DNA of 32,617 nucleotides from a virus, in the IMG/VR virus record IMGVR_UViG_3300009636_000022, positions 1-32,617 of that record; one strand, written 5' to 3'. The notes under the pieces were generated by a model. The model was not told the origin of the DNA and did no database searches. It saw only the letters and a program-made list of their open reading frames with translations. The position numbers and the translations under genes are program-made. Shown here one piece after another: positions 1-16,895 of the stretch. The first letter of the stretch is position 1; each line of letters begins with the position of its first letter.

Positions 1-267
1 TATATCAAATGAATTTTTACATAAAGGACAATATGAATTGCCTGAAAGAAATGCATCGGCAACAAGTTTGTGGACATTATAAGTTTTACTTTGACCATCT
101 TTACATAAAGTGATAAGAGCGTAATTACCTTTTGAAGATTGTTTTAACATTTTAGGTTTTTTGTTGGCCACGAGTCTGTGAATATAAGAAATTCTTTTTA
201 TGTTTCCTATAGAGGAAACTTGATACAGACCCTCATATCCCTTTACATCTTTCCAAATCTCATTCAT
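1..267 (-). CDS. NUMOD4/HNH homing endonuclease, N-terminal part (cut by window edge)
   Basis: The 89 visible residues start at an ATG at 267 and run off the left edge with no stop. Residues 4-25 match the NUMOD4 pattern of phage homing endonucleases: IWKDV, then GYEGLYQVS, then G-x-IKR. Residues 65-74 (VHKLVADAFL) match the usual segment just before the HNH core, and C80-P-L-C83 starts a zinc-binding pair. The catalytic HNH residues lie outside the window. Family knowledge: such genes are free-standing or intron-borne selfish endonucleases that cut intron-less or gene-less alleles. It is the last gene of a minus-strand run but has its own promoter-like sequence (277-304). Very likely NUMOD4; whether it is intact cannot be judged. 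Confidence 0.85.
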   Translation of the reverse strand, partial: MNEIWKDVKGYEGLYQVSSIGNIKRISYIHRLVANKKPKMLKQSSKGNYALITLCKDGQSKTYNVHKLVADAFLSGNSYCPLCKNSFDI

Positions 268-276
268 AATACTAAC

Positions 277-304
277 ATTACAGCATTATTTATTCGATTG
301 TCAA
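277..304 (-). promoter_or_regulatory. Promoter of the HNH gene, leaderless geometry
   Basis: On the minus strand: TTGACA (304-299), 16-nt spacer, TGTAAT (282-277), then 9 nt to the ATG at 267. The -35 is a perfect sigma70 match and the -10 matches 5 of 6. Transcription would start within a base or two of the start codon, and no Shine-Dalgarno site is present. The geometry is the same as the promoter at 4761-4788. Confidence 0.55.
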
Positions 305-332
305 TTTTATATTCGTCAAATTGAAAAATTGC

Positions 333-878
333 TTATTTTATTCTTTTCGGATAAAGCTTTGGTGGCAACTTATTTCTGAGAGCTTTTATATTACCACGAA
401 GAATATAAGCGTATTTATGAAATCCTGTTTTGGATTTACCAAGATATATTGCGTTGGTGGCTTGATAAACTGTTCCAATATGACCAGCTTTTTCATTGGC
501 ATTTGTTATCACCACTTTTACGTTGGGTTCGTCTTGTTTTAGGAGTTTTAGTGTTTGTGCGATAACATAAGATTCCAGATTAGGAATACCAACGTCAGCA
601 AGATATAATCTTTTCAAATCCAACACTTCTCCCGACATAGCTTCTGGGCTTAGAAATTTTGAAGCAGAATACATTGGAAGTCCATATATAGCCATCCCAA
701 TTGCCATCTTTTGTTGGCCATGAGGATATTTGTATCTCACGACATATATTCTTTTGACGCGAGCTGGTATAGTATGAAGATAATGTTTCTTAGCTAGTTG
801 TATTATTGCTTCCCTTGTAGCAGGAACAACCTCTACTTCATCTTGTAATCCTTCAATAATAAGCTTTTTAAGATTCAT
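333..878 (-). CDS. Mom-like DNA-modification acyltransferase (paralogue 1)
   Basis: 181 aa. The middle and C-terminal parts match the phage Mom family, a GNAT-like fold: LDLKRLYL (86-93), N100-L-E102-S103, and the signature G132-H-I-G135-x-x-Y138-Q-A. Mu Mom converts adenine to N6-carbamoylmethyladenine, which shields phage DNA from many restriction enzymes. The exact chemistry here is inferred from family only. The ATG at 878 overlaps the stop of the upstream 452-aa gene by 11 nt, so the two are probably translated together. The first residues, MNLKKLIIEGL, resemble the short N-terminal helix seen on several other proteins here (see findings). A second member of the family lies at 11666-12463. 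Family is fairly sure; activity untested. Confidence 0.72.
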   Translation of the reverse strand: MNLKKLIIEGLQDEVEVVPATREAIIQLAKKHYLHTIPARVKRIYVVRYKYPHGQQKMAIGMAIYGLPMYSASKFLSPEAMSGEVLDLKRLYLADVGIPNLESYVIAQTLKLLKQDEPNVKVVITNANEKAGHIGTVYQATNAIYLGKSKTGFHKYAYILRGNIKALRNKLPPKLYPKRIK

Positions 879-2226
879 ACCCTTTCATCTGTTGTTCAGA
901 AGTTTGAATAAGTTTTTTGATAATATCTTCTGCTTTACCACCACCCAATAAAACCTCTTTTATATGTGGTATGGATAATCTGTAAAAAAGTTTTTTAACA
1001 ATAGGGAGATATTCTATTTTATCTGCTGGTATCAATTGTCGGAGTCTATTATCCAAACCCGGACCTGCTAGAAATTGTTTTAATTCATCACTCAATGGTT
1101 CCACATCCAATTCTTTTTGAGAAGCAATATCCATAGAAAGATACTCACCTATACCTTTAACTAATTCATGAATCAATAATACAAAATTTCTTCCTCTAAC
1201 TTTAATAGTATATTTGTCACCTGTAGGAATTATTTCTTCACTTCCAACCGCAGCAGTATCTACAAACATTCTAGTAAATCGTATTTTGGGTAATCTATAA
1301 TTGAGAACCAGAGATACAGCCGATACAAGTCCATATTTTTGTGGTAAGGTTCGGTCTATTTTTTGTAATTCCTCATTTACTTCATTAAAAAGGAAAAATT
1401 TGTTAAGAGCATCTCCTTGAGTGATATAATTTGCCAAAGTTCTTCTTAATTTACTTTCAATGTCTCCCGATAATGCTGAATAAATTTGAGCATTAAGATT
1501 TTCAGCAACAGTCAGTTCATTACCCATCATTTGGTTCATTTCATCTTCAGCAATAGCATTTGTCAAATCAGCAGAAGCTAGTTTAACGTCTATAATGATT
1601 TCTCCCGACTGAACAAGTTGTTTTATGAATTTATACTCTCGAAGATTTAGAACCAAATTGACGGCAAGTTTTTCAAGTTGTGATTTTCTATTTCTTTCTA
1701 TATCTTCAATTTGGATTGCTGTTGTCATAAGTAATTCCAACATAGATGGTAGAGTTGGAAACAATCTTTGAAGATTTGCTACAGGTTGTTCGACATAATG
1801 AGCAAGTCTATCTACTGCTTTACGATAACCTTCACTTGTAATAATTTCAAGGTATTTATCTGCATTACTTCCAAGATTTGGAAATATTGCTTCAACATAA
1901 TCAGTTTCATTTTCTATTGCTGCTCTTTTTTCAGGATGAATGAAATCTGGGTAGTCTCCAATATTTATGGTTTCTTTTATACCTTTTCTTGCGTTTATGA
2001 ATAATTGAACATCGTGTGATAAAGCTTTTGGTTTAGGACGAATGCCCGGTCTTGTTGGTTGAAGTGGATGGGGTGTTTTTGGAGTAGGCGGCTGAATAGG
2101 AGTAGGTTGTCTAACTGGAGATGGAGCAGGTTTAGTTGGTGGTGGTGGTGCAGTTGTTTGTTCGTTGGGTGATAAAGTCTCTTCAACTACTAACTTGATT
2201 ATATTCCTCAACTGACTTCTTTTCAT
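868..2226 (-). CDS. 452-aa phage protein with N-terminal capsid-targeting-like helix and proline-rich linker
   Basis: I do not recognise a catalytic family. The start is placed at the ATG at 2226 (MKRSQLRNIIKLVVEE); an upstream in-frame ATG at 2280 would add 18 residues lying inside the divergent gene and is less likely. Layout: residues 1-18 a basic amphipathic helix ending in VVEE; about 25-70 a proline-rich, low-complexity linker with a PPPP run; then a roughly 380-residue mostly helical domain with a basic beta segment (KYTIKVRGRNF) followed by VLLIHELVKGIGEYLS. The architecture, short helix plus flexible linker plus large domain, would suit a protein packaged in or attached to the virion. 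Its start codon is 16 nt from that of the divergent 505-aa gene, whose N-terminus is similar. It overlaps the downstream Mom-like gene. Confidence 0.75.
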   Translation of the reverse strand: MKRSQLRNIIKLVVEETLSPNEQTTAPPPPTKPAPSPVRQPTPIQPPTPKTPHPLQPTRPGIRPKPKALSHDVQLFINARKGIKETINIGDYPDFIHPEKRAAIENETDYVEAIFPNLGSNADKYLEIITSEGYRKAVDRLAHYVEQPVANLQRLFPTLPSMLELLMTTAIQIEDIERNRKSQLEKLAVNLVLNLREYKFIKQLVQSGEIIIDVKLASADLTNAIAEDEMNQMMGNELTVAENLNAQIYSALSGDIESKLRRTLANYITQGDALNKFFLFNEVNEELQKIDRTLPQKYGLVSAVSLVLNYRLPKIRFTRMFVDTAAVGSEEIIPTGDKYTIKVRGRNFVLLIHELVKGIGEYLSMDIASQKELDVEPLSDELKQFLAGPGLDNRLRQLIPADKIEYLPIVKKLFYRLSIPHIKEVLLGGGKAEDIIKKLIQTSEQQMKGYES

Positions 2227-2227
2227 A

Positions 2228-2239
2228 ATATGTACATAT
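2228..2239. repeat. Perfect 12-bp palindrome between two divergent start codons
   Basis: ATATGTACATAT sits in the 16-nt gap between the ATG at 2226 (minus) and the ATG at 2243 (plus). Promoters for either gene must overlap the other gene's coding sequence. A palindrome centred between the two starts could be a shared operator or simply AT-rich symmetry. Confidence 0.4.
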
Positions 2240-2242
2240 AAC

Positions 2243-3760
2243 ATGAAATTGTTTGAGTTAAAGTCATTGATAGAAAGCATCGTTTCTGAGGAAATAAATA
2301 AAGAACAGTTAAACTCTGTAGCTAAAACTTTACATATTCCTGTTGGTAAATTGAACGCATGGGTAAAAGGTGTTGACCCTACTTCAAGGCAATCTTTTTC
2401 TGTATGGATACTTCGGATGCTAAAAAATCAACAAATAAGATTTGAAGACAGTCTTAGAGTAGGAAGTGCTATAAACCGATTTATTCAACTTAGAAATGCT
2501 AATAGGATAGAAGACATAATGAGATTTCCAACAATTCATGAATTGGAAACAAGAATGGACCAACTAGAAGGTCAGGGTTCAAAAAGACAGGGATTTGCTG
2601 GGGTAAATCCATTAACTCTTCCGGGAGTTGAAATATTGGAAAAGAGACCTGATATAACATTCTATAAGGTAACTAATCCAAGTTCATTGGCAAAAATGGG
2701 AGAGGGAACAAAATGGTGTACTAGATTTTCTTTTAATAAAAGTATAAGTACTGCAAAAGGATATATAGATAGATACGGATATTTGGTAATTGGATATAAA
2801 GATGGAAAACCTTATGTTCAATACAACCCCGATTACAGTCAAGTAATGGATGTTAATGATGTAAGTTTTCATCATGTTAGTAGAGAAATAGCAAAACAAT
2901 TAAATCTTCCACCACCAGAAATTATTAAAAGACCTCTGCCTAAAATAGACCCAAGTAAATATCCACCACTTCGTACTACAAAAAAAAGAGAATTTAAACC
3001 TGAAACTCCTGCTCAAACTAAATTAAGAAGTTGGTTAAAATTTACGACTCAACGAAAACCAGAATGGGAAAAATTTATTAAATCTAAATCTGACCGCAAG
3101 AGTACAAAAGGAAAAGATATAGATTATGAACAAAGGGTTGCTAGAGCAATTACAAGAAGTACTCATCCATTTCATATTGACCGAGTAATGTATTATTTTG
3201 TAGATTATGCTAAAAAGGAAATTCCCGGAGAACGTTCTCCTGTAATAGAAAAAGCAATATTGGAAAAAGACTTTAAACCAACTATGGTGGCAGGAAAAGG
3301 AGGACGTGGTTCTGGTTCAAGAACTCGAATACCCGGTATTGATGGCATAATATTTTATGTTAAAAATAATATTAAATCAAATTGGCCTGAATTTGAACAA
3401 AAAATACAAAATGATGCAGCCAATTCTGTAAAATATTATACGAATACTGGATTAAATCCAGATAATATACCTGATGGAATAGTAAAAGATATGGTATTAT
3501 TTGTAAAATTTATCAAGGATAAACACATTACACCATCAAAAGAAAAATTTGAAGCATCTATAGTAGATTTCATTTCAAGAGCAAGAAATCAGTTTAAATA
3601 TGGTCAATTTTCTCCTATTTTATATAATGTTATTATTCCATACATGGAATTGGTTAAAAAACCATTAATAAGAATTGTTGGTTCTAAATTATACAACATT
3701 CTTACACGTAGTAATGCAACATTTAGGGGTGTTGTAAAAAGAACGGAAAATGGATTTTAG
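2243..3760 (+). CDS. 505-aa phage protein with PcfJ-like GTKWCT motif
   Basis: Residues 1-18 (MKLFELKSLIESIVSEE) form a short amphipathic helix resembling that of the divergent neighbour. Around residues 140-215 is a segment with GTKWCT (155-160), then YGYLVIGYKDGKPYVQ and a D-V-N-D-V turn. This arrangement, WC-T followed by a two-stranded G-K-P-Y-x-Q hairpin, is one I associate with PcfJ-like proteins common in large phages and conjugative elements; their biochemical role is unknown to me. Residues 230-250 are proline- and lysine-rich, and the C-terminal half is basic with a GKGGRGSGSRTR patch near 350. It ends in TAG, 2 nt from the convergent nuclease gene. Real gene; function unknown. Confidence 0.72.
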   Translation: MKLFELKSLIESIVSEEINKEQLNSVAKTLHIPVGKLNAWVKGVDPTSRQSFSVWILRMLKNQQIRFEDSLRVGSAINRFIQLRNANRIEDIMRFPTIHELETRMDQLEGQGSKRQGFAGVNPLTLPGVEILEKRPDITFYKVTNPSSLAKMGEGTKWCTRFSFNKSISTAKGYIDRYGYLVIGYKDGKPYVQYNPDYSQVMDVNDVSFHHVSREIAKQLNLPPPEIIKRPLPKIDPSKYPPLRTTKKREFKPETPAQTKLRSWLKFTTQRKPEWEKFIKSKSDRKSTKGKDIDYEQRVARAITRSTHPFHIDRVMYYFVDYAKKEIPGERSPVIEKAILEKDFKPTMVAGKGGRGSGSRTRIPGIDGIIFYVKNNIKSNWPEFEQKIQNDAANSVKYYTNTGLNPDNIPDGIVKDMVLFVKFIKDKHITPSKEKFEASIVDFISRARNQFKYGQFSPILYNVIIPYMELVKKPLIRIVGSKLYNILTRSNATFRGVVKRTENGF

Positions 3761-3762
3761 AG

Positions 3763-4674
3763 TTAATCACGTTCTTCTTTTGGAATATCTGAAATTGCGT
3801 TACAATTTATACCCTTATGGGGACAATAACGGCAATTCTTTTTTCCTTTTCCGGGATTTTTTAAGTAAATTTTGGAATCCTCTATAAAATTACCCTCGGG
3901 TGTAAAACATTCCGCAACAAATTCAGCAAATCTATTCAATGCTTTAGCTACAGATTGTTGATTATTTTTTGGAATGAATGTTTGAATACGACTTTGAGGA
4001 AATGCATAATTTTCCCAAAGTTTTCTTCTGAGGATGAAAAATTCAACGTCAATCATATTAATATCAACATTATATTTCCTACTGAAAAATGCTTTGTATA
4101 AAAGAATTTGAGAAATTTTAGCTTCATCATCTCTTTGATAATGATTCCATCCACTTGTGGAAGTTTTAATATCAATAATTTTGTATCTACCTGTTGCTTT
4201 TTCTTTTAGAACAACATCAATGTAACAAATAAATTCCACATTGTTTTTAATTGGCATTATAATTTCATCTTCAATGGCAATAAATTCATATTTACCTGAC
4301 GGGAAATGTTTAATACGGTTAGTAATATTAGTAAATGCAATAATGATATTATCACCGTCTTCATAATATTCTTTCTTGATTGCCGGTTCGACCACAACTT
4401 TTGTTTTTTCTAATTCTCTATCAAAAGCAATTTTGAATATTTCATAAAGGTTATGTGCATCAGCATCTTTTGCAGATTTTTTATATAAAGTTTTAATGTA
4501 TAATTGAGTAGCTTCGTGCATCGCTGTGCCGAAACAAGTATTTACATTATCTTCAAATTCACGCAATCCTTTTACGTGGTCGAGATACCATCTGTGTCGG
4601 CAATTAAACCAGTTAGAAAATTGAGAGAAACTGACGCGCTTTTTTCCATTGGTTGGTGTAGAATTTCTTTCCAT
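3763..4674 (-). CDS. RecB/Cas4-like PD-(D/E)XK exonuclease with iron-staple cysteines
   Basis: 303 aa from the ATG at 4674. Motifs in order: C25 in NWFNCRHRWY; GTAMH with H53; D153 in CYIDVVL; D168-I-K170 in IIDIKTS (the D-x-K core); QILLY (QxxxY); and a C-terminal C-x2-C-x6-C (NCRYCPHKGINC). One N-terminal Cys plus three C-terminal Cys around a RecB-type core is the [4Fe-4S] iron-staple layout of Cas4, AddB and Dna2-type nucleases. Family knowledge: single-strand DNA exonucleases used in end processing and recombination. An in-frame TTG at 4710 could extend the frame, but it falls inside the -35 box of the gene's own promoter. It is transcribed away from the polymerase operon. Confidence 0.85.
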   Translation of the reverse strand: MERNSTPTNGKKRVSFSQFSNWFNCRHRWYLDHVKGLREFEDNVNTCFGTAMHEATQLYIKTLYKKSAKDADAHNLYEIFKIAFDRELEKTKVVVEPAIKKEYYEDGDNIIIAFTNITNRIKHFPSGKYEFIAIEDEIIMPIKNNVEFICYIDVVLKEKATGRYKIIDIKTSTSGWNHYQRDDEAKISQILLYKAFFSRKYNVDINMIDVEFFILRRKLWENYAFPQSRIQTFIPKNNQQSVAKALNRFAEFVAECFTPEGNFIEDSKIYLKNPGKGKKNCRYCPHKGINCNAISDIPKEERD

Positions 4675-4681
4675 TGATGTT

Positions 4682-4710
4682 ACTTTATCAATATTAGAGA
4701 TACTTGTCAA
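4682..4710 (-). promoter_or_regulatory. Promoter of the RecB-like nuclease gene, leaderless geometry
   Basis: Minus strand: TTGACA (4710-4705), 17-nt spacer, TAAAGT (4687-4682), then 7 nt to the ATG at 4674. The -35 is perfect; the -10 is weak (4 of 6). It explains why the in-frame TTG at 4710 is probably not a start codon. No Shine-Dalgarno site fits in the 7 nt. Confidence 0.45.
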
Positions 4711-4760
4711 ATATTTATACTATATGAAAACCATGTTATTTTATATGGTATTATAATACA

Positions 4761-4788
4761 TTGACTTTTCCTTAAAACGTGATATAAT
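4761..4788 (+). promoter_or_regulatory. Promoter of the polymerase operon, leaderless geometry
   Basis: TTGACT (4761-4766), 16-nt spacer, TATAAT (4783-4788), then 9 nt to the ATG at 4798. The -10 is a perfect consensus. Expected transcription start is at or just before the ATG, so the first gene of the polymerase operon would be read from a leaderless mRNA. Confidence 0.65.
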
Positions 4789-4797
4789 TTATCTATA

Positions 4798-5100
4798 ATG
4801 AGAATTAGTCAACTCCAATCACTGACACAAGAAGAACTTCAACTTCTTTTTTACATAATAAACGTAATAGAACCATTGACTTCTCCTAAAATAGAAATAG
4901 GTTCTAAAGAAATTTTATGGTTTAAACATGATACGTTAGTTTGGAAACTTTCTAAACAAGAATCAAAATTAACTCCCGAAGGAAAAACTATATTTCAGGG
5001 GTTAATGACTAAACTAAACAAAATAGCAACACAAGAAGCGAAAGAATATTATGAATGTGCCTCAAATTCAACATCTACACAGCCAGAATTTCAATTCTGA
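4798..5100 (+). CDS. 100-aa hypothetical protein, first gene of the polymerase operon
   Basis: No family recognised. The protein (MRISQLQSLTQEEL at its start) is mostly helical by eye, with polar content and a serine/threonine-rich tail. It follows a consensus promoter by 9 nt. Its last 50 nt overlap the next gene in another frame. Given its place ahead of the polymerase it could be a small regulator or replication accessory, but nothing in the sequence shows this. Confidence 0.65.
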   Translation: MRISQLQSLTQEELQLLFYIINVIEPLTSPKIEIGSKEILWFKHDTLVWKLSKQESKLTPEGKTIFQGLMTKLNKIATQEAKEYYECASNSTSTQPEFQF

Positions 5101-5389
5101 ATTCGTAGAATTTGTTTGGCAGTTTCCTGCCAGAGAAGATTTACAAGAACAAGTAATCTTACAAGTTTATAAAAATGGTACCCTATATATCGAAGGCGGT
5201 ATTATCAATGCTGATGGAAATTATACATCAGAACATGCGGAGAGTGATTATGCCGTTTCTGAAATTACTGTAGATTGGCTTAAAAGTACTCAATTTAATT
5301 CACTCATCAACTATATCAAGAAATTTTTCTCTCTTGAAAAAGAACTTGCCGAATTGGTTGAAGAAACTGTAAAATATTTAAAAGAATAA
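5051..5389 (+). CDS. 112-aa hypothetical protein upstream of DNA polymerase
   Basis: No family recognised. The first part has alternating hydrophobic residues suggestive of beta strands (VILQVYKNGTLYIEGGII), and the last 40 residues form a Lys/Glu-rich helix. The ATG at 5051 is the only usable ATG; it lies 50 nt inside the previous gene. Its TAA overlaps the polymerase ATG in TAATG, so the two are probably translationally coupled. The long overlap with the upstream gene is unusual; a frameshifted fusion of the two is possible but not supported by an obvious slippery site. Confidence 0.6.
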   Translation: MNVPQIQHLHSQNFNSEFVEFVWQFPAREDLQEQVILQVYKNGTLYIEGGIINADGNYTSEHAESDYAVSEITVDWLKSTQFNSLINYIKKFFSLEKELAELVEETVKYLKE

Positions 5390-7986
5390 TGTATCAAAAT
5401 ATATACATCAACAGGAAAGATTGGATTGTTCATCTTTGGGATGATATTAAAGGTTATTCATCATTCCCGTATCCAAAATACGCTTATAAAAGACAAGTAG
5501 GTGGACCTGAAAAGTCAATATATGGTGATGAATTAGTAAAAGTATTTGATTATAAAGACAATGACACAGAGTTATTTGAGTCAGATGTTCCAGCAGAAAC
5601 AAGAGTTCTTATGGATACTTACTCCGATTCAGATGAACCATCAATAGGTCATAGGGTGGGTGTAATTGATATTGAAGTATCAACAGAGGGTGGATTTCCA
5701 AATATAGAAACTGCTGATAAAAAGATTACTGCTATTTCATTGTTTGATTATTTAACTAAAACTTGTTGTATATTTGTTCTTGATAAAGACCATAAAATTG
5801 ACAATAAAGAAGAGGAAGTTGACCCGTGGTTGCCAAAAGATTGGAAAATTACAACAGAAGAAATACAAAAAATAAAAATTGTTGTACGGTCATATGACGA
5901 TGAAGACAATCTTTTAATAGATTTCGTGGATAAATGGCAAGAATGTGCATTTACCATTGTTACAGGTTGGAATGTAGATTATTTTGACCTCCCTTATTTG
6001 TATCTCCGATTAAAAAATTGTCTTGGTATAAAAGCAGCTAAATGTTTATCGCCCACTGGTGCAGCATATGTAAATGGTTTTACCAAAAAACTAACGCTTG
6101 GTGGTATATCGGTTCTTGATTATATCCTACTATATAAGAAGTTTTCTGGAAAGATGGAACCAACTTATGCTTTAGGTCCTATTGGTTTAAAAACTGTTGG
6201 TATCGGTAAAATTCAATATCACGGTAATTTAGACGATTTATACAAATCAGATATAAACAAATTTTTAGAATATAACATGACCGATGTTAAAATTATTGTT
6301 GCATTGGATAAAAAACTTAAATTTATTGATTTAGCTAGAAATATTTGTCATGTAGGCCACGTTCCATATGATAATTTTCATATGTCATCACGATATCTTG
6401 ATGGAGCTACATTGATTTATTTGAAACGAAATGGCGGTCTTATTTCTCCAAATAAACCAGCAGAGGGAAAAGAAGAATATACTGAAAGGTTGGAAGAAGG
6501 AGAAGAAGGATTTTCTGGTGCATTTGTCAAGGAGCCCGTGCCGGGAAGATATAATTGGGTTTTTGACCTTGATTTAACTTCAATGTATCCCAATATTATT
6601 ATTTCCCTGAATATATCTCCAGAAACGAAAGTAGGTAAAATAGAAAATTATTCACTCGAAAAGCGTATAAAAGGAGAGACTACAATGTATGAAATTGGTC
6701 AAACAAATTATACACCTGATGAGTTTGAAGAGTTGGTTGAAAAATCAAATTATTCTATTAGTTCTAACGGTATATTATATCGTACAGATAAAGCCGGTGT
6801 AATTCCTACTCTTTTGTCGTTATGGTTTCAACAGCGCAAGAATATGAGGAAAAAAGCTGCTGAATTCAAAAAAGCTGGTGATATGGAACAATATAATTTC
6901 TACAACCAACGTCAAGCGGTTTGGAAAATTTTACTCAATTCATTTTACGGAGTATTAGGGTTGCCTTTATTCCGATTTTATGATGTGGATAATGCTGAAG
7001 CAGTAACTACTACAGGTGTAGATATTATTCAAACTACTGCCAAGGCAATTAACATCTATTACAAACAAGCATTGGAAACTGATGAAGATGGTGATTGGGT
7101 TATTTATAGTGATACCGATTCGTGTTTTGTTGATTCAATTCCCATTATTAAAAAGAGATTTCCAGATATAGATTTGAATAATGAAGATGAAATGACTAAA
7201 GCCATTATGAGCGTGACTACGGAAGTTCAGAGTTATGTGAATCAATTTTATCATGTGATGGCTAAAAAATTCTTCAATTTAAATAAACACACATTTGATG
7301 CTAAGCAGGAAGTAATTAGTAAATCATCGTTTTGGCTTGCTAAGAAACGATATGCGCAATGGATTATTCATGAAGAAGGTGCCTTATTAAAACAACCAAG
7401 ATTGGAAGTAAAAGGTATCGACGTTGTCCGAACATCATTTCCAGCTTCATTTCGGACATTTATGGATTCTTTCTTGAGAAAATTATTGACTGCAGCTCCA
7501 AAAAAGGAACTTGATGATATGATTCTCAAATTCAGAGAAGATATAAAAACACTTGATGTTCTTGATATTGCAAAAAATACTTCTGTAAAATTTGTAAGTC
7601 AGGACGGTGTTCATAACTATAATCCAGATAATAGAAGGCCTCTTCAATTTGTCAAAGGAACGCCGGCACAAGTAAAAGCATGCTTAGCTTACAATGATTT
7701 GTTAATTAAAATGAAGTTAGAAAAACAATTTGAACCAATTCATCATGGTCAGAAAATCAAATGGGTATATTTACAAGATAATCAATATAACTTAGATGCT
7801 TTAGCTTTAAAAGGTGATGGAAATGACCCCGATGAAATATTGGAAATAGTTAATCGGTTAGTTGATAGGAAGAAAATGTTCGAACAGGAATTAAAGAGTA
7901 AACTAATAGATTTTTACAATGTATTTAAGTGGACATTTCCAAATTCGTCAATGGAAACTGCAAGCCAATTTTTTGATTTTTCTTAA
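5389..7986 (+). CDS. Family B DNA polymerase with 3'-5' exonuclease (T4 gp43-like)
   Basis: 865 aa, close to T4 gp43 in length. Exonuclease motifs: ExoI D94-I-E96 (VIDIEVST), ExoII N195-V-D197 (TGWNVDYFD), ExoIII Y295-N-M-T-D299. Polymerase motifs: A with D395 in DLTSMYPNII, B K513-I-L-L-N-S-F-Y-G521, C Y573-S-D575-T-D577-S. An AKKRY segment follows motif C, as in the family. All catalytic acids are present, so the enzyme should polymerise and proofread. It is the replicative polymerase of the phage, working with the clamp (13827) and loader (14773). It overlaps the preceding gene by 1 nt and ends the operon. Confidence 0.97.
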   Translation: MYQNIYINRKDWIVHLWDDIKGYSSFPYPKYAYKRQVGGPEKSIYGDELVKVFDYKDNDTELFESDVPAETRVLMDTYSDSDEPSIGHRVGVIDIEVSTEGGFPNIETADKKITAISLFDYLTKTCCIFVLDKDHKIDNKEEEVDPWLPKDWKITTEEIQKIKIVVRSYDDEDNLLIDFVDKWQECAFTIVTGWNVDYFDLPYLYLRLKNCLGIKAAKCLSPTGAAYVNGFTKKLTLGGISVLDYILLYKKFSGKMEPTYALGPIGLKTVGIGKIQYHGNLDDLYKSDINKFLEYNMTDVKIIVALDKKLKFIDLARNICHVGHVPYDNFHMSSRYLDGATLIYLKRNGGLISPNKPAEGKEEYTERLEEGEEGFSGAFVKEPVPGRYNWVFDLDLTSMYPNIIISLNISPETKVGKIENYSLEKRIKGETTMYEIGQTNYTPDEFEELVEKSNYSISSNGILYRTDKAGVIPTLLSLWFQQRKNMRKKAAEFKKAGDMEQYNFYNQRQAVWKILLNSFYGVLGLPLFRFYDVDNAEAVTTTGVDIIQTTAKAINIYYKQALETDEDGDWVIYSDTDSCFVDSIPIIKKRFPDIDLNNEDEMTKAIMSVTTEVQSYVNQFYHVMAKKFFNLNKHTFDAKQEVISKSSFWLAKKRYAQWIIHEEGALLKQPRLEVKGIDVVRTSFPASFRTFMDSFLRKLLTAAPKKELDDMILKFREDIKTLDVLDIAKNTSVKFVSQDGVHNYNPDNRRPLQFVKGTPAQVKACLAYNDLLIKMKLEKQFEPIHHGQKIKWVYLQDNQYNLDALALKGDGNDPDEILEIVNRLVDRKKMFEQELKSKLIDFYNVFKWTFPNSSMETASQFFDFS

Positions 7987-8025
7987 CATTCTATATTATG
8001 ATGGAATGAATAATCTATTATAATA

Positions 8026-8054
8026 TTGACGTAACTTTGAAAAGAAGTTACAAT
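8026..8054 (+). promoter_or_regulatory. Promoter of the methyltransferase unit
   Basis: TTGACG (8026-8031), 17-nt spacer, TACAAT (8049-8054). It lies in the 104-nt gap after the polymerase gene. The first ATG after the -10 is at 8061 (6 nt) and opens an 8-codon reading frame; the real gene begins at 8091. Confidence 0.5.
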
Positions 8055-8060
8055 AATACG

Positions 8061-8087
8061 ATGTTGAAAATAAAACAAAGTATATAA
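8061..8087 (+). CDS. Possible 8-codon leader ORF
   Basis: ATG at 8061 to TAA at 8085-8087 encodes MLKIKQSI. It starts 6 nt after a -10 box and stops 3 nt before the ATG of the next gene at 8091. It could be a leader peptide that lets ribosomes load on a leaderless message and restart at 8091, or it could be chance. No Shine-Dalgarno site is visible before either ATG. Confidence 0.25.
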   Translation: MLKIKQSI

Positions 8088-8090
8088 ATT

Positions 8091-8813
8091 ATGAATTATC
8101 CAACTGAAAAAGAACTCAAAGACTTACTAGAATCAGACCTAGAACTTAATGCTATTGCTCAATCAGGCCCTTCTCTTGAAAAGGGACATCATGTTGCTCC
8201 AGAGGTTGAAAGAATTGTCCGTGAAAAATTGTATAATGCTTATGGGGGCAAATATGAAGAATTTATTGACATATATAAAATAGGTCCCAATAAAGGCCAA
8301 CCAAAACCTAAGAAGCAAGGAAAGGGAGTTAGAAAGGAACCAGATTACAAACTAAAAGATTTTCCTGACCAACCGGGTAATGTAAAAGCAGCATGTGTGT
8401 CTGAAAAAGATGGTGGACCTAATCTTTCATCTCTCTCTAAATACGCTACCCAATATATCGATGGTCAAATAAAAGCTTATTGGTTTCTTATTGTCAATTT
8501 AATAGATGGTAAAGTTTCTGTCAACTTTCATGAATTGTTTAGTGAACTTCTTCCAGTTTGCCGATTTGATTTTGGTCATGGACAATTAATGCTTGATAAA
8601 AGTAGATATTACAAATGGTTAAAAGAACCAAATCATACAAAACTTTCGCCAACAGAATCTATTGATTATTTATTGGAACTTATATCCAAACCAAAAAGAG
8701 AAAAATTTTACGAAAAAAGAGAAAAGAAATATTCCAAACTTGAAGAGAATTTACTTAAGAAAAAATTGGCGTTGAAACCTTCTTATGAGAACACGGAAGC
8801 ACCAAAGGAATAA
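8091..8813 (+). CDS. 240-aa protein paired with a DNA methyltransferase; possible restriction endonuclease
   Basis: No firm family match. Features: a charged helical N-terminus; P84-D85 followed by KLKD; an E105-K106-D-G-G segment after a hydrophobic stretch; then a hydrophobic strand (YWFLIVNLI) and FDFGHGQLMLDKSRYYKW. The order acid, E/K, hydrophobic strand loosely recalls a PD-(D/E)XK core, but no clean E-x-K is present. The last 29 nt overlap the N6-adenine methyltransferase gene, and both share one promoter. By context it could be the cognate restriction enzyme, a specificity partner, or an unrelated protein. The C-terminal 45 residues are a Lys/Glu-rich helix. Confidence 0.6.
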   Translation: MNYPTEKELKDLLESDLELNAIAQSGPSLEKGHHVAPEVERIVREKLYNAYGGKYEEFIDIYKIGPNKGQPKPKKQGKGVRKEPDYKLKDFPDQPGNVKAACVSEKDGGPNLSSLSKYATQYIDGQIKAYWFLIVNLIDGKVSVNFHELFSELLPVCRFDFGHGQLMLDKSRYYKWLKEPNHTKLSPTESIDYLLELISKPKREKFYEKREKKYSKLEENLLKKKLALKPSYENTEAPKE

Positions 8814-10395
8814 TAAACGTCAAATGGGTCAATTTATGACCCCCAGATTATTGGCACAGAAAGTAATAGGAAATGACATTAAGAAAGAAGAGAATATTTT
8901 AGAGCCATCTTTCGGTGATGGCTCTTTTATTATAGAGATAGCAAAAAAATTGATGCCCATATATGACTATAATCTGGATAATGTATTTGACCACATATAC
9001 GGCATAGAATTAGACCCAATTCTTTATAACAAGTGTTTACTGAATATAAAAAAAGAATTTGGTAAAATACCTGAAAAACACCATCTTATTAATGAGGATT
9101 TTTTACTGCATAATTTTGATGGAATATTTTTCAAACATATTTTGGGAAATCCACCGTTTGGGGGAACTATACCAATTAAATATCAAAATAAATTAGAAGA
9201 ATTATATGGTAAAAGATATGGAAAAACTATAAAAAGAGAAAGTTATTCATATTTTTTAGTAAAAAGTGTAGGAATGTTGGAAGTAGAAGGAAAATTATCA
9301 TTTATATGTAGTGATACTTTTCTTACAATAAAAACCATGTGCGGATTACGGAATTTTTTAATGCAAGAAGGACTTGTGTCAATCAAAGAATTGCCTGAAT
9401 TTTCAGAGGAAACCAATTATGGCATGGTAATTATTGATTTCATAAAATCAAATAAAAAAGAATCTAACTATATTGAAGTCTTTGGACAAAAAATCTTCAA
9501 AAAGGATATGGAAAAAATAGGGAATTTGTCTTGGGGAAATGTTAATGAATACATGAAATATTTTATAGGCCCTCATTTATCAACTTATATTATTTGTAGT
9601 AGTGGGATGACTATAGGAAAAAATGAATATTTTGTCAGAGAAATAGTTGATGATAAAATAATAGAGCCATACAACTTTACATTTTATAATAAACCGATTA
9701 CATTAAAAGATGAATTGAATAGAGCACATTTTAATAAGTTATCAGAATCACAAAAAGTAAAAATCACACACAAAGAACAAATGGGAGAAACAAAAAAAGA
9801 TGTCAAAATTGAACCTTTAACAGTACCTGAATCAATAATGATTCCAAATGATTACTATAAATATTATAATAAAATGGTCCCCGGTGATGTATATGTAGAA
9901 CCAAAATATGTAATTTATTGGAGAAATGATGGTGAAGCGGTTAAAATGTTTAAAAAAAATGGAAATTGGTATCTTCATGGTATAGGGGGATTGCCCTTCT
10001 TTGGAAGAGAAGGAATTACATGGAATCTAATAGGTTCTAAAATCAACCCAAGATATTTGCCAAAAGGTTATATTTTGGATAGTGGGTGCCCATGTGGATT
10101 TCTGAAAAATGGTGTTGAAAAAGACGAATTATTCTTTATTATGGGGTGGCTTTTAACTTCCATGGCAAATGATATTCTCAAAAATGTTATAAATCATACC
10201 AGAAATATTCAGGGAAAAGATGTTGAAAAACTTCCATATCCTATATGGGTTTCAGATTCTACAAAACATAAAATAATAGATTATGTTAAGTCGATTATTG
10301 ATTTAAAGAAAAATGGAACTCCGTTGGAAAATAGTTATGTTGAAGTTCTAACAGAGTTATTTGATTTTCAGATTGAAAAAAGTGGTGTTGACTAA
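8785..10395 (+). CDS. N6-adenine DNA methyltransferase (gamma class, type II-like)
   Basis: 536 aa. Motif X GQFMTP (15-20), motif I ILEPSFGDGSF (38-48, SAM binding), an acidic GIELDP, and motif IV N122-PPF, in the order X-I-IV of gamma-class m6A methyltransferases. The region beyond about residue 250 would be the target recognition domain. Expected role: methylation of phage DNA at a fixed site, for self-protection or as part of a restriction-modification pair with the 8091 gene. An alternative start at ATG 8824, just before GQFMTP, would remove 13 basic residues. The stop overlaps the -35 box of the next operon. Confidence 0.88.
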   Translation: MRTRKHQRNNKRQMGQFMTPRLLAQKVIGNDIKKEENILEPSFGDGSFIIEIAKKLMPIYDYNLDNVFDHIYGIELDPILYNKCLLNIKKEFGKIPEKHHLINEDFLLHNFDGIFFKHILGNPPFGGTIPIKYQNKLEELYGKRYGKTIKRESYSYFLVKSVGMLEVEGKLSFICSDTFLTIKTMCGLRNFLMQEGLVSIKELPEFSEETNYGMVIIDFIKSNKKESNYIEVFGQKIFKKDMEKIGNLSWGNVNEYMKYFIGPHLSTYIICSSGMTIGKNEYFVREIVDDKIIEPYNFTFYNKPITLKDELNRAHFNKLSESQKVKITHKEQMGETKKDVKIEPLTVPESIMIPNDYYKYYNKMVPGDVYVEPKYVIYWRNDGEAVKMFKKNGNWYLHGIGGLPFFGREGITWNLIGSKINPRYLPKGYILDSGCPCGFLKNGVEKDELFFIMGWLLTSMANDILKNVINHTRNIQGKDVEKLPYPIWVSDSTKHKIIDYVKSIIDLKKNGTPLENSYVEVLTELFDFQIEKSGVD

Positions 10396-10416
10396 ATACA
10401 TTATTTGTGATATAAT
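10388..10416 (+). promoter_or_regulatory. Promoter of the 10425 operon, leaderless geometry
   Basis: TTGACT (10388-10393), 17-nt spacer, TATAAT (10411-10416), then 8 nt to the ATG at 10425. The -35 overlaps the stop codon of the methyltransferase gene. This is the best-spaced promoter in the window, and it leaves no room for a ribosome-binding site. Confidence 0.68.
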
Positions 10417-10424
10417 GTACTATT

Positions 10425-10613
10425 ATGAATATGACACCTTTAATCAATCGACAAGCGATTAAACGAATGGCTCTTAAATTGAGTAAATCAATCAGAGCAG
10501 GTAGATTTACTAGAGTTGGTAGTGAATTTTTTATTCGCGTGAATTCACGGTTGGATGCAATTATTCGTGAAGAAGTTCACAAACATCCAAGCATTGGAAA
10601 GACATTGAAATGA
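10425..10613 (+). CDS. 62-aa basic protein
   Basis: A small, strongly basic, helical protein (NRQAIKRMALKLSKSIRAG, then RFTRVGSEF, then HPSIGKTLK). It looks like a member of a small family I have the impression of seeing in other phages. The two-helix pattern could fit a small DNA-binding protein, possibly histone-like, but this is a guess. It is first in an operon behind a strong leaderless promoter, so it may be made early and in quantity. The TGA overlaps the next ATG (ATGA). Confidence 0.65.
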   Translation: MNMTPLINRQAIKRMALKLSKSIRAGRFTRVGSEFFIRVNSRLDAIIREEVHKHPSIGKTLK

Positions 10614-10951
10614 AAAAACATGGGAAAACATATAAGCCTGTAGGTAGGTTAAAAATTCCTACAACGATTCCTATCTTGATTTCAGGAGTAGGTATGATTA
10701 ATACAAATAAAAATATGAAAATAACAATTGAATGTGAAATGAAAGATAAGTGGGTTCCTCATTTTTTGGGAATGCTTTATCATATGGAAAAATTGGGTAA
10801 ACTGGGAAGTTCAAGAAGAATATCAATATATGCAGATGGTGATGGCGATTTTAGACCAAGATTTAAGTGTATTCAATCAAGTGAACCACTTCCTTTGCCT
10901 GCTAAACCTGTTGAGGAAATTGATGGCAATACGATATTTGATGCTGGTTAA
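10610..10951 (+). CDS. 113-aa phage hypothetical protein
   Basis: No known function. The central part alternates strands and helices (ITIECEMKDKWVPHFLGML, then GSSRRISIYADGDGDFRPRF) and has an acidic DGDGD turn that could bind a metal. The C-terminus is proline-rich. I have the impression that similar short proteins occur in other large phages. Starts in the ATGA overlap with the basic protein and ends 2 nt before the next gene. Confidence 0.65.
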   Translation: MKKHGKTYKPVGRLKIPTTIPILISGVGMINTNKNMKITIECEMKDKWVPHFLGMLYHMEKLGKLGSSRRISIYADGDGDFRPRFKCIQSSEPLPLPAKPVEEIDGNTIFDAG

Positions 10952-10953
10952 TT

Positions 10954-11439
10954 ATGTCAGATAAAATTTTCAATTTTGATGACCAATTAAAAATCGGTAA
11001 CAATGGAGAAACCGATTTTATGAGGATTTATGAAAAGCTTGAACCTAAAAAAAGTTTAGATAATTTTCGTATTGACTTTCTTCTTAATAATGGTAAGACT
11101 ATAGAATTAAAGACTGATAATTATGACATGAATAAAACCCCAAATTTTTTCATGGAACAATATACAGTTTCAGGAAATAAAAGTGATTTGGGTGGTCCTT
11201 GGCGTTCAAAAGAACATAACGTTGATTATTTTGTTTATTATTTTATTAAAAATAAAGTATTCTTTTGGTTTGACCCTGTTTCATTGTGTGAATGTTTGGA
11301 TAAGTTCATAAGAGAAAATGAACTCAAACAAATTTCAATACCAAATGTAGATAAGAATGGTGGATGTTATAAAGCGTTGGGATTTAAGATTCCAAGAGAT
11401 AGTTTAAAATCTGTTCTTCTTAAAGAACATAAAATATGA
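10954..11439 (+). CDS. Probable PD-(D/E)XK nuclease, 161 aa
   Basis: Likely active-site residues in order: E19 in GNNGETDF, D41 in FRIDFLL, and E51-L-K53 in KTIELKTD. An early Glu, a strand ending in Asp, then E-x-K is the pattern of Holliday-junction resolvase and restriction-type nucleases. The rest (W-R-S-K-E-H-N-V-D-Y-F-V-Y-Y) gives a hydrophobic strand common in this fold. It could act in recombination, DNA repair or host DNA breakdown; the substrate cannot be read from the sequence. Third gene of the 10425 operon, overlapping the next by 4 nt. Confidence 0.68.
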   Translation: MSDKIFNFDDQLKIGNNGETDFMRIYEKLEPKKSLDNFRIDFLLNNGKTIELKTDNYDMNKTPNFFMEQYTVSGNKSDLGGPWRSKEHNVDYFVYYFIKNKVFFWFDPVSLCECLDKFIRENELKQISIPNVDKNGGCYKALGFKIPRDSLKSVLLKEHKI

Positions 11440-11669
11440 AAATAAAAAGTAAAAAATTAAGTAAAATTGAAAAAGAAATTGGTAAATGTATGGAAAAGTA
11501 TATAGGAGAGCCTATAGATGATATCACTTTGTCAAAAATTGAAAAATCAGTCCAAAAATTAATAAATAATTGTTTTCCAAATCAATATAAAGTTATAATG
11601 GACAGGTCAAATAATTCTCCAAAAAATATAGACAATCAAATTTTAAATATTGACCTAATTTTAAAATGA
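11436..11669 (+). CDS. 77-aa hypothetical protein
   Basis: Short, lysine- and isoleucine-rich, helical N-terminal two-thirds; no recognisable motif. It overlaps both neighbours by 4 nt (ATGA), which supports it as a translated member of the operon. Confidence 0.55.
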   Translation: MKIKSKKLSKIEKEIGKCMEKYIGEPIDDITLSKIEKSVQKLINNCFPNQYKVIMDRSNNSPKNIDNQILNIDLILK

Positions 11670-12463
11670 AGTTTGATTACACAATCAAAGAAGTAAATAA
11701 ATTTACCGCAGCTAAATTAGTTCAACAACATCACTATTCCAAGGTAATGCCTAAACTTACCAAGCATTATCTTGGTGTATTTATTGGTGATAAGATGGTT
11801 GGTGTACTAACTCTTGGATGGGGAACGCAACCCCGCCAAACTATCAATAAACTTTTTCCCGGTCTTACAACCAAGGACTATTATGAAATTGGTAAGATGT
11901 GTATGCTTCCTGAAATGCCCAAAAATTCTGAATCACAAATGTTATCTGCAATTATCAAATGGATAAAAATACATTTGCCAGAAAAGCTATTTCTATATAC
12001 ATGGGCTGATGGTATTGTTGGTAAAGTTGGTTATGTGTATCAATCAGCAAATTTCTATTATGGTGGTTTCATTTGGACGGATATTTATATTAGCCCTGAT
12101 GGGGAGAAAATTCATCCAAGAACCTCACATAATCTTTGTATAGAGAATGCTAAGTTTTGTAATAAAGAAAAGATATTCTGGTTGACCCGAGATTTTATGA
12201 AATTGAAAGGAATCACTAGAATAAGAGGAAAACAATTCAGATATATTATGCCTTTATCTAAAATGGCTAGAAAAATGCTTGACAAATCTACTGTTAGATG
12301 GACAATAGATTATCCTAAAGAAGAAGATTTAGAATGGAAAAAACAAATTGATGGTGGTTATGAACTAATTAAAGAATTGCCAAAAATTGATTTGGGAATG
12401 GTCAATATAAATAAAAAGAATGTCAATTCTTATAAAAGGGAAGAAAATCAATTTTTTGGATAA
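11666..12463 (+). CDS. Mom-like DNA-modification acyltransferase (paralogue 2)
   Basis: 265 aa. N-terminal H22-H-Y-S25 segment, GVFIGDKMVGVLTLG strands, E74-I-G-K-M, N87-S-E89-S90, W113-A-D115, and G119-x-x-G122-x-x-Y125-Q-S-A-N. The N-x-E-S and G-x-x-G-x-x-Y-Q motifs align with the protein at 333-878, so the phage has two members of the family. This one keeps the HHYS segment and has an extra 110-residue C-terminal part, suggesting a different substrate or target. Family role: acyl modification of adenine in DNA to block restriction; the exact product is unknown here. Lies between a nuclease and the macro-domain gene. Confidence 0.78.
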   Translation: MKFDYTIKEVNKFTAAKLVQQHHYSKVMPKLTKHYLGVFIGDKMVGVLTLGWGTQPRQTINKLFPGLTTKDYYEIGKMCMLPEMPKNSESQMLSAIIKWIKIHLPEKLFLYTWADGIVGKVGYVYQSANFYYGGFIWTDIYISPDGEKIHPRTSHNLCIENAKFCNKEKIFWLTRDFMKLKGITRIRGKQFRYIMPLSKMARKMLDKSTVRWTIDYPKEEDLEWKKQIDGGYELIKELPKIDLGMVNINKKNVNSYKREENQFFG

Positions 12464-12474
12464 TAAAAGGAAAT

Positions 12475-12792
12475 ATGCATTATAAAGATGGAACAGAAGC
12501 AATGGTTGGAGATATAGCTCGTGGTAAAGGATTTAATATTCCTTATGAAATTGTAGCTCCAGTGACAAAATTAAAACCTGAAGGTGGTAAATGCAATCTT
12601 GAACTTAAAGTTGTTAAAGCTACACTGATACCGGGATACAATGATGGTGATGGTGGAATCGGATGGATTCCCGAACAATGGACTTTTGATATGATTGACG
12701 AATATGGTGACGTTTCTGAATTTGAATTGATTTACCGAAAAGGTTGGAAGAGAGTTCAATCCCGTAATCTTGTTTGGGAAAAAAGCTGTTAA
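12475..12792 (+). CDS. 105-aa small beta-barrel-like phage protein
   Basis: Starts MHYKDGTEAMVGDIARG, a pattern seen in many short phage proteins that fold as an SH3/KOW-like barrel; the rest is mostly beta strands with a G-D-G-G-I-G-W loop. AGGA 5 nt before the ATG is a clear ribosome-binding site, unlike the leaderless first gene of the operon. Function unknown. Followed by the macro-domain gene 11 nt downstream. Confidence 0.65.
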   Translation: MHYKDGTEAMVGDIARGKGFNIPYEIVAPVTKLKPEGGKCNLELKVVKATLIPGYNDGDGGIGWIPEQWTFDMIDEYGDVSEFELIYRKGWKRVQSRNLVWEKSC

Positions 12793-12803
12793 TTATAGTT
12801 TTA

Positions 12804-13349
12804 ATGAGTGAAAAATTTACAATAGGTTATAAATCCATTTTTGATACACCTGCTGATGCTTATGTCAATACCATTAACTGTGTGGGTATAATGGGCGCTG
12901 GTATTGCTTTGGAGTTTAAGAAACGTTATCCTTTGATGTTTGAACATTATAAAGAACTATGCTCTAAACATGCAATTCGTCCCGGTGATTGTTACACTTA
13001 TTTTGACCACGAACATCAGATTTATCTTCTTGGATTAGCAGTAAAAAATGATTGGCATTATTGGAGTACTCTTGAATGGATTGAATCATCAATTAAATCG
13101 TTAAAACTTGCTATATTGGAGAATGACATTAAATCAGTAAATATGCCTTTACTCGGAGGAAAGAATGGAAGAAGAGGCCCATATGGAAAAGTGGAGGGAT
13201 TTACACCGCCGCCAGACAGAATTGAATTGAAAAAATTGATTGAAGAAGAACTTAAACCATTCGCTGAAAAATTTCAGATAATTATCAATTTGTGTTTACC
13301 TGATGAACAACCAAAAAAACAAGAAGTTACATTGGATTCATTTATATGA
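12804..13349 (+). CDS. DarG-like macro-domain protein (ADP-ribosyl glycohydrolase), no toxin partner
   Basis: 181 aa from ATG 12804; an upstream TTG extension overlaps the previous gene and is not needed. VNTINCVGIMGAGIALEFK (21-39) is the ADP-ribose binding loop in its DarG form. K81 in VKNDWHYWS aligns by eye with the catalytic Lys of DarG, and PLLGGKNGRRG matches the second loop. DarG removes ADP-ribose from DNA placed by the toxin DarT. No DarT gene lies nearby, and the protein ends soon after the macro domain. In a phage this fits an antidote against the host DarTG abortive-infection system, by inference. It could also act on other ADP-ribosylated targets. The stop overlaps the next gene (ATGA). 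Confidence 0.85.
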   Translation: MSEKFTIGYKSIFDTPADAYVNTINCVGIMGAGIALEFKKRYPLMFEHYKELCSKHAIRPGDCYTYFDHEHQIYLLGLAVKNDWHYWSTLEWIESSIKSLKLAILENDIKSVNMPLLGGKNGRRGPYGKVEGFTPPPDRIELKKLIEEELKPFAEKFQIIINLCLPDEQPKKQEVTLDSFI

Positions 13350-13768
13350 ACAGAGAAATAAAATTTAGAGTTTGGGATGATGTTGAAAAGAAAATGCTTT
13401 ATCCAAAGGATATTTTTAATGAACAGAGTATTTTTTATGAAGATGATGAAAATGGTAATCTTTTGATAAATAGAGTTATTGATAGTTATGGTGTAAGGCG
13501 AAGTCTGGCCATCCAACAATATACCGGTCTTAAAGATAAACATAGCAAAGAAATTTATGAAGGAGATATCATAGAAACTATATACCAATCCAAAGGTTCA
13601 ATAATTTACTTAAACGAATTTGGTGGATTTAGAATTATAGTCAATGAAATATGTCTTCCTATTGTGACGGTTAGATTTATTGATGAAAAACCAAATGGAT
13701 TATTATTAGTTGTTGATAAAATAATAGGTAACATTTTTGAAACACCAGAATTACTAAATAAAATATAA
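13346..13768 (+). CDS. YopX-family phage protein
   Basis: 140 aa. REIKFRVWD near the start, QYTGLKD-K-x-x-K-E-I-Y-E-G-D-I-I in the middle, and IIGNIFETPELL at the end are the three marks of the YopX family, found in many phages of Gram-positive and Gram-negative hosts. Function of the family is unknown. Last gene of the 10425 operon; 58 nt before the sliding-clamp gene and its own promoter. Confidence 0.88.
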   Translation: MNREIKFRVWDDVEKKMLYPKDIFNEQSIFYEDDENGNLLINRVIDSYGVRRSLAIQQYTGLKDKHSKEIYEGDIIETIYQSKGSIIYLNEFGGFRIIVNEICLPIVTVRFIDEKPNGLLLVVDKIIGNIFETPELLNKI

Positions 13769-13772
13769 AAAA

Positions 13773-13801
13773 TAGACAAAGAATAAAACGTATGGTAATA
13801 T
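13773..13801 (+). promoter_or_regulatory. Promoter of the sliding-clamp operon
   Basis: TAGACA (13773-13778), 17-nt spacer, TAATAT (13796-13801), then a 25-nt leader with GGAG before the ATG at 13827. Unlike other promoters here it makes a leadered message. The 12-mer AAATAGACAAAG covering the -35 recurs at the promoter before 17356. The -10 lies inside a 16-bp palindrome. Confidence 0.5.
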
Positions 13802-13808
13802 ATTACCA
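13793..13808. promoter_or_regulatory. 16-bp perfect palindrome over the clamp -10 box (candidate operator)
   Basis: TGGTAATATATTACCA is a perfect inverted repeat that contains the TAATAT -10 hexamer. A dimeric repressor bound here would block the clamp promoter. No regulator is identified in the window. Confidence 0.4.
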
Positions 13809-13826
13809 AAATTGGAGAATATAAAT

Positions 13827-14579
13827 ATGGAAAAGAAACACATTGAAACATTTATTAAAAAATATAATTTGGGCGGTACCATCGAGGGCGTTCTTTGGTC
13901 TAATAATAACAACGATTTGTCAGTAACCGCGATGACTTCTGATAGGAAGTTGTTCACTTCTGTTCAGTTGGAAAAAGCGGCTACATTCTTTAGCGGTATA
14001 GAAATAGGTATATCAGACACCAACAAACTTAAAAAAATGTTGTCGCCTCTCGCAGATAATATTGCCTTATCGTTGGATATTGATGAAAACGATGTGACAA
14101 GAGTTCGTCAACTAATTGCCGAAGATGGAAAAATCGGAATCAACTATGTAACAGCTGGCGTTGATGTTATTGACCCTGTTCCAACTATGAAGAATGTTCC
14201 ACCATTTACGGTAGAAATTGTTTTTACACCTGAATTTATTGATGCTTTTAATAAATCATTTGGTGCTATTGATGATAAGGATGCCTTATTTACCCTTATT
14301 ATGAGTAAAAAGAAACAGAAATTGGAAATGGTATTAGGTTATAAACAAAAAAATTTGTCAGATAGAATTGCTATGGAAGTCACTGCTACTGCTGGTAAAG
14401 ATATAGTGAAAAATCCAATAAGTTTTAGTGCCAAGCATCTTAAAGAAATTTTATCTGCTAATGGTGAAGTGAATAATCCAGTTCTAAACGTGTCAGAAGC
14501 TGGATTGGCTAGTATAGCTTTTAATGATAGTGGATTTAAGAGTCAATATTATTTAGTTAAAATTGATGTAGAAGATTAA
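13827..14579 (+). CDS. Sliding clamp (T4 gp45/PCNA-like)
   Basis: 250 aa from ATG 13827, with GGAG 9 nt upstream; a TTG at 13812 would extend the frame but lies on the ribosome-binding site. Length, the beta-rich pattern and an end rich in alternating hydrophobics (YYLVKIDVED) fit a gp45-like clamp. The neighbouring RFC-like loader supports this strongly. No short motif is decisive, so the call rests on pattern and context. Role: trimeric ring that tethers the polymerase to DNA and, in T4, activates late transcription. Confidence 0.75.
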   Translation: MEKKHIETFIKKYNLGGTIEGVLWSNNNNDLSVTAMTSDRKLFTSVQLEKAATFFSGIEIGISDTNKLKKMLSPLADNIALSLDIDENDVTRVRQLIAEDGKIGINYVTAGVDVIDPVPTMKNVPPFTVEIVFTPEFIDAFNKSFGAIDDKDALFTLIMSKKKQKLEMVLGYKQKNLSDRIAMEVTATAGKDIVKNPISFSAKHLKEILSANGEVNNPVLNVSEAGLASIAFNDSGFKSQYYLVKIDVED

Positions 14580-14593
14580 AAAATGGAATAAAT

Positions 14594-14770: not shown

Positions 14771-14772
14771 TT

Positions 14773-15756: not shown

Positions 15757-15764
15757 AGGAAAAT

Positions 15765-16013: not shown

Positions 16014-16040
16014 CATTGTCAATTTAAAATAAGAAAAATT

Positions 16041-16322: not shown

Positions 16323-16353
16323 AAATAAGTTTTAGTAAATATTTAGCATAATT

Positions 16354-16893: not shown

Positions 16894-16895
16894 TT

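Follow-up and report, generated by a model that had tools for sequence, protein, structure and literature searches.

Leaderless translation has so far mostly been described for host genes or for single phage genes. The bacterial leaderless genes of the TA-led type lack a Shine-Dalgarno site and carry a Pribnow-like box some 12 bp ahead of the start codon; in Actinobacteria and Deinococcus-Thermus they make up more than 20% of all genes (Zheng et al. 2011, PMC3160421). In the part of the Lactococcus cremoris study drawn on here, leader lengths are bimodal, with the leaderless group separate, and no leaders of 4-14 nt were found (PMC10986495). In phage lambda, the cI mRNA is leaderless, with the AUG of a phage gene at its 5' end, and 70S particles bind leaderless mRNAs according to the same review (PMC9031893). 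Kasugamycin leaves leaderless transcripts unaffected (PMC5230787). For the jumbo phage AR9, leaders of 26-491 nt are reported and phage transcripts are there termed 'often leaderless' (PMC5312081). Among the matches listed in the literature, which covered few subscription papers, no case of widespread leaderless mRNA in a T4-like or jumbo phage was found.

The window, i.e. the whole stretch of DNA analysed, comes from a virus record, is 32,617 bases long and shows 99.997% identity across its full length to part of IMGVR_UViG_3300038424_000251 (365,299 bases, the 365-kb record, G001), of which it forms part. The phage is giant, T4-related and known from metagenomes only. It has T4-type replication genes and a major capsid protein: the T4-type DNA polymerase in the window matched phrog_262, the clamp loader matched phrog_168, a helicase was also matched, and Gp23, the major capsid protein, was matched in one (G001) of the five records searched. 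Relatives of the window polymerase are encoded at 13 viral loci, and the best annotated phage was Mel-JY01, a Microcystis phage (43.7%).

Like the TA-led bacterial genes, the genes described below have a -10-type box near the start codon and no Shine-Dalgarno site, but they belong to a phage and also have a strong -35 box; the only phage mentioned in the part of that study drawn on here is lambda (PMC3160421). Lambda cI is a single classic case (PMC9031893), whereas 79 candidate ORFs share a promoter design in one record here. The L. cremoris leaders belong to host genes with mapped ends, whereas the leaders here are predicted, at 0, 3 and 5 nt, and the predicted 5-nt leader falls inside the 4-14 nt leader gap of that species (PMC10986495).

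Sigma70-type sites in front of start codons

The original prediction placed sigma70-like boxes 7-9 nt before the ATG of six units in the window and read them as leaderless promoters. Sites were scored with a matrix built, blind to ATG, from 42 TTGACW/TAWAAT seeds; 11 seeds were counted in the relatives. In the 42 seeds, which were picked for sigma70 hexamers, the spacer was 16 nt in 33, 17 in 6, 15 in 2 and 18 in 1. The mark of the sigma70 type, a TTGACA-like and a TATAAT-like hexamer separated by 16-18 nt, is present.

The leaderless-type promoter at 4761-4800 (+), in front of a gene located two genes upstream of the DNA polymerase gene, consists of -35 TTGACT (4761-4766) and -10 TATAAT (4783-4788), scored 24.8 bits and lies with its -10 9 nt from ATG 4798. 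The leaderless-type promoter at 10388-10427 (+), with TTGACT (10388-10393) and TATAAT (10411-10416) 8 nt before ATG 10425, scored 20.9 bits. A probable promoter of this type at 265-304 (-) has TTGACA (304-299) and TGTAAT (282-277), scored 15.1 bits with TGTAAT taken as the -10, and leaves a gap of 9 nt to ATG 267; an ortholog of its gene was sought among the relatives tested and none was found. The promoter at 4672-4710 (-), with TTGACA (4710-4705) and TAAAGT (4687-4682) 7 nt before ATG 4674 of an exonuclease-like gene (exonuclease PHROG match), scored just 7.3 bits, and its boxes are nevertheless conserved. The sixth predicted site, at 30493-30533 (+), has TTTACA (30493-30498) and TAATAT (30516-30521) 9 nt before ATG 30531 and scored 9.4 bits; its boxes are not conserved, since the upstream sequence differs in the orthologs of three relatives. 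Before ATG 17356 the matrix finds no sigma70-like site, and TATTTATA is present 3 nt before the ATG instead. The sigma70-like assignment was thus retained for 4798, 10425 and 267 by score and for 4674 by conservation. A leaderless start is the best reading at 4674, 4798 and 10425 and a probable one at 267, whereas 17356 belongs to another box class and 30531 is unsupported.

Of the eight window sites of at least 10 bits, five were followed at 3-12 nt by an ATG-ORF, whereas 200 shuffles averaged 0.04 such sites and never gave more than 1. Two of the five were judged spurious, 27661 (+), where the gene begins directly after the box, and 1538 (-), which lies inside a gene; with these removed, 4798, 10425 and 267 (-) remain. 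In a loose scan for 9-of-12 consensus matches in positions 1-20000 of the window, promoters were not in excess (102 vs 102.1 expected). What carries the signal is the strong sites, together with how far they lie from the ATG, and not loose consensus matches. A palindromic promoter-like element at 25695-25719 (+), TTGACACTACATATAGTGTGATATG, with the palindrome CACTACATATAGTG ending 4 nt before ATG 25717, is nearly identical in the relatives G3, G5 and G6 and gives no match to the matrix; it may be an operator or a promoter that depends on an activator.

When rows with identical upstream sequence (G3/L007, G5/L015, G6/L019, L008/L009) were counted once, the boxes of 4674 (-) and 4798 were kept in five distinct relatives (G5, G3, L008, G6, L010) with gaps of 6-8 nt, and boxes similar to those of 10425 were found in four (G5, G6, G3, L008) with gaps of 7-11 nt. 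The spacers have diverged between the conserved orthologous promoters. The most distant relative, L013, has degenerate boxes only (TCGACA/TATGGT, 9 nt, and TTGACC/TAGTTT, 6 nt). The 4798 protein aligns from residue 1 in six relatives. Window positions 4705-4719, TATAAATATTTGACA, upstream of the 4674 (-) gene, are conserved in five relatives and contain a conserved TATTTATA at 4712-4719 (+) which abuts the -35 of that gene. Matrix sites with an ATG-ORF numbered 10 of 14 in G3, 3 of 6 in G5 and 14 of 22 in G6.

The position-weight scan against shuffles that had been proposed for the full genome gave 139 sites of at least 13 bits in G001, the 42 training seeds being themselves among the sites scored, against a mean of 12.25 in four shuffles. 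At 79 of the 139, an ATG lies at 3-12 nt and begins an ORF of 40 aa or more, where about 7 are expected by chance at the 4.9% found for random intergenic positions; for random positions in general the rate was 3.9%. Among the control matrices, the six with permuted columns gave 4 of 90 sites with an ATG-ORF and the reversed one 0 of 9. The ATGs 3-12 nt after sites (n = 93) open ORFs with a median of 93 aa, compared with 13 for all ATGs of G001. The gene caller places some starts too far downstream and overlooks small genes, and against the 79 ORFs behind sites there are 34 called genes. The ORFs cluster at 200-260 kb (49 of 79). The exact pattern TTGACW, 14-20 nt, TAWAAT, 3-10 nt, ATG had 26 matches in G001, representing 25 promoters (one counted twice), and no match when read backwards.

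Sixty of the 139 sites have no ATG-ORF (at least 40 aa) at 3-12 nt, and several of these fall inside called genes. In 29 of them an ORF starts at 13-120 nt, and 3 of these 29 have a Shine-Dalgarno-like word; another 6 have a tRNA or tmRNA gene no more than 150 nt away, 3 precede a short ORF, 2 a GTG/TTG start and 20 nothing, although one of the 20 (159084) is upstream of a tRNA at 159102 (Rfam). Strong promoters without an adjacent ATG-ORF were observed at G001 240460 (-), 251246 (-), 249632 (+) and 246787 (-), the first three alike downstream, and these are candidate promoters of small non-coding RNAs. Since 140 called first genes in G001 carry neither box, the proposed leaderless route is one common mode in this phage and not the rule for first genes.

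Leaderless expression had been regarded as unusual for T4-like phages, and the exact pattern TTKACW, 15-18 nt, TAWAAT was compared between phages by the share with an ATG at 4-11 nt. In G001, 28 matches, corresponding to 27 of 54 promoters, had such an ATG, against 2 of 13 in T4, 0 of 4 in KVP40, 3 of 25 in P-SSM2, 4 of 138 in phage G, 1 of 8 in phiKZ, 1 of 15 in Atu_ph07, 0 of 5 in Mel-JY01, 0 of 2 in LR756508 and 2 of 6 in G004. When the pattern with its ATG was read backwards, it matched once in G001 and between 0 and 3 times in each other phage. Start-codon-adjacent promoters are thus commoner here than in T4 and in the majority of the phages compared, whereas HTVC008M (4 of 13) and phiM12 (2 of 5) were not clearly different. 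The four such promoters of HTVC008M, a Pelagibacter phage (KC465899), may also be leaderless starts.

Predicted transcription starts and ribosome-binding sites

The distance from the -10 to the ATG in the 79 ORFs was 6 nt in 34, 9 nt in 19, 11 nt in 12, 7, 8 or 10 nt in 13, and another value in 1. With the commonest gap, 6 nt, the A of the ATG is base seven downstream of the -10, where +1 usually falls. Among promoters with a 9-nt gap, base seven is A in 16 of 19, while the equivalent position upstream of other genes has A in 188 of 363 (p = 0.004); among those with an 11-nt gap it is A in 9 of 12 compared with 194 of 363, which is not significant (p = 0.12). By box placement, the +1 is thus predicted at the start codon or within about 5 nt of it, as in leaderless genes. 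For the six promoters that neighbour a tRNA or tmRNA gene, the distance to the mature end is 11-16 nt in five cases and 91 nt in one, the shorter distances being consistent with a start near the box. A pyrimidine before the ATG is general in this phage and so gives no indication of the start point.

Shine-Dalgarno words (AGGA, GGAG or GAGG, 3-10 nt before the ATG) were counted before called genes of G001 and in a control stretch. None preceded the 34 genes of the sigma70-type class (control 3) or the 20 genes of the TATTTATA class (control 0), an absence in all 54 that is partly by construction, since the boxes occupy part of the Shine-Dalgarno stretch. Of 19 called genes of the two classes in the relatives G3, G5 and G6, a single one, in G5, had such a word. 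The words preceded 20 of 140 other first genes (control 7), 20 of 167 internal genes (control 9) and 6 of 47 mid genes (control 4). The claim that AGGA-type sites are often present inside operons is thus weak, as is the contrast drawn from it, and the words are rare outside both classes too (12-14%, background 5-9%).

A second class of boxes

The box found in place of sigma70-type boxes at 17356 recurs in the window. It occurs at 17345-17358 (+) as TATTTATA (17345-17352) before ATG 17356, at 18147-18163 (+) as TATTTATA (18147-18154) before ATG 18161, and at 28739-28756 (+) as TATTTATA (28739-28746) before ATG 28754. In the relatives G3, G5, L008 and G6, the first is CTATTTATA with the ATG at 3-7 nt, and the 17356 protein aligns from residue 1 in G3 and G5. 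The second is TATTTATA in G5, G3, L008 and G6 with the ATG at 4-7 nt, while the L010 box is 26 nt upstream. The third is the same in G5 and G3, and TATTTATT in G6. In G001, 25 of 117 occurrences of TATTTATA (baseline 2.3%) and 13 of 113 of TATTTATT are followed at 2-9 nt by an ATG whose ORF spans 60 aa or more; in the relatives, TATTTATA has an ATG-ORF in 8 of 16 cases (G3), 8 of 23 (G5) and 5 of 19 (G6).

The T4 late promoter consensus is TATAAATA, used with gp55. Like it, TATTTATA is an 8-bp A/T box directly upstream of genes of a T4-like phage; unlike it, TATTTATA is the reverse complement of the T4 consensus. At 2-12 nt before an ATG, TATTTATA was counted 46 times vs 18.6 in shuffles and TATAAATA 28 times vs 17.8, and the class was not assigned to the T4-type late promoters, which have a TATAAATA box upstream of genes. 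A gp55 homolog (phrog_234) was found in T4, but in none of six related records nor in Mel-JY01; phrog_12791, also used in the gp55 search, matched in no record at all and is hence uninformative. Five of ten genes behind TATTTATA had a PHROG match, including a tail-lysozyme-like and a head-tail adaptor-like protein, and a Pfam search with ten proteins behind TATTTATA (five shared with the PHROG set) gave no match. The capsid gene has no TATTTATA box at its start. The label 'late' and a link to T4 late transcription are used by analogy only.

Explanations and consequences

The boxes, their distance from the ATG, their enrichment relative to chance and to most control phages, their conservation and the lack of Shine-Dalgarno words are, with high probability, best explained by leaderless or near-leaderless mRNAs from sigma70-type promoters set on start codons, as far as sequence can tell. 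A sigma70-type RNA polymerase, most likely that of the host, would recognise the strong promoters, which combine TTGACW with a TAWAAT-like -10, mostly across a spacer of 16 nt and often with TG preceding the -10. Transcription would start on the A of the ATG or 3-5 nt upstream, the mRNAs would be leaderless or nearly so, and ribosomes would bind the 5'-terminal AUG. The TATTTATA class, with its similar distance to the ATG, would probably give leaderless mRNA too, perhaps later in infection. Sigma70 region 2 and IF3 were not found in G001, G003, G005 and G006, and the RNA polymerase beta subunit and ribosomal protein S21, looked for in G001 only, were not found.

AT-rich DNA often has a -10-like hexamer near some ATG, and the loose window scan and the low scores at 4674 (-) and 30531 would agree with chance, which is still the likely origin of the 30531 site. 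For the promoter class as a whole chance is refuted, by the 79 of 139 G001 sites compared with 4.9% at random intergenic positions, by the conservation in relatives, and by phage G, where the same exact pattern gives 138 promoters yet few near an ATG; the view that the repetition makes chance improbable was thereby borne out. The boxes could instead be real promoters while the main mRNAs begin at other promoters further upstream and have ordinary leaders, as the conserved TATTTATA at 4712-4719, 78 nt upstream of ATG 4798, might indicate. This is unlikely: a longer leader would supply no classical site to the 54 called genes, none of which has a Shine-Dalgarno word, and the 49 of 79 ORFs in 200-260 kb repeat the design gene after gene. 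It is very improbable that the RNA begins at the ATG while ribosomes initiate at a later codon served by a ribosome-binding site of its own. The start codons were called from sequence alone, which leaves room for such a shift, but a check for Met found no second one in the first 40 residues of 4674 (-), 4798, 17356, 18161 and 28754, and the alignments of relatives begin at residue 1 in most shown.

With leaderless or near-leaderless mRNAs as the preferred explanation, the phage would have about 80 candidate leaderless ORFs, with a signature fixing the start codon to the base, and genome-wide leaderless expression in the T4 lineage becomes testable. The signature would help gene calling in such phages. 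A further-reaching and less probable reading is that a giant T4-like lineage has moved two promoter classes onto start codons and expresses a large part of the genome via leaderless mRNA, which would give phage genes a separate initiation route (70S on the 5' AUG) and with it a possible advantage over host mRNAs in infected cells.

The candidate leaderless ORFs point to a host with ribosomes accepting such mRNAs, and the little use of Shine-Dalgarno words anywhere in the phage suggests a host with the same habit. Phyla with species poor in Shine-Dalgarno sites include Planctomycetes, Chlorobi, Bacteroidetes and Cyanobacteria (PMC5397173). The polymerase had no relative in genome contigs, and an epimerase matched six loci (52-60% identical) in scattered bins (Woesebacteria, Flavobacteriaceae three times, Lokiarchaeota, Proteobacteria), which settles nothing. 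G001 encodes 53 tRNAs (ARAGORN), including one with a CTA anticodon, which would read TAG, at L036 6814-6888. A GOLLD RNA is located amid tRNA genes at L036 7988-8453 (G001 267988-268453), and a tmRNA at L036 388-791 (Rfam). Two Mom-like DNA modification proteins are encoded in the window, at 333-878 (-) and 11666-12463 (+).
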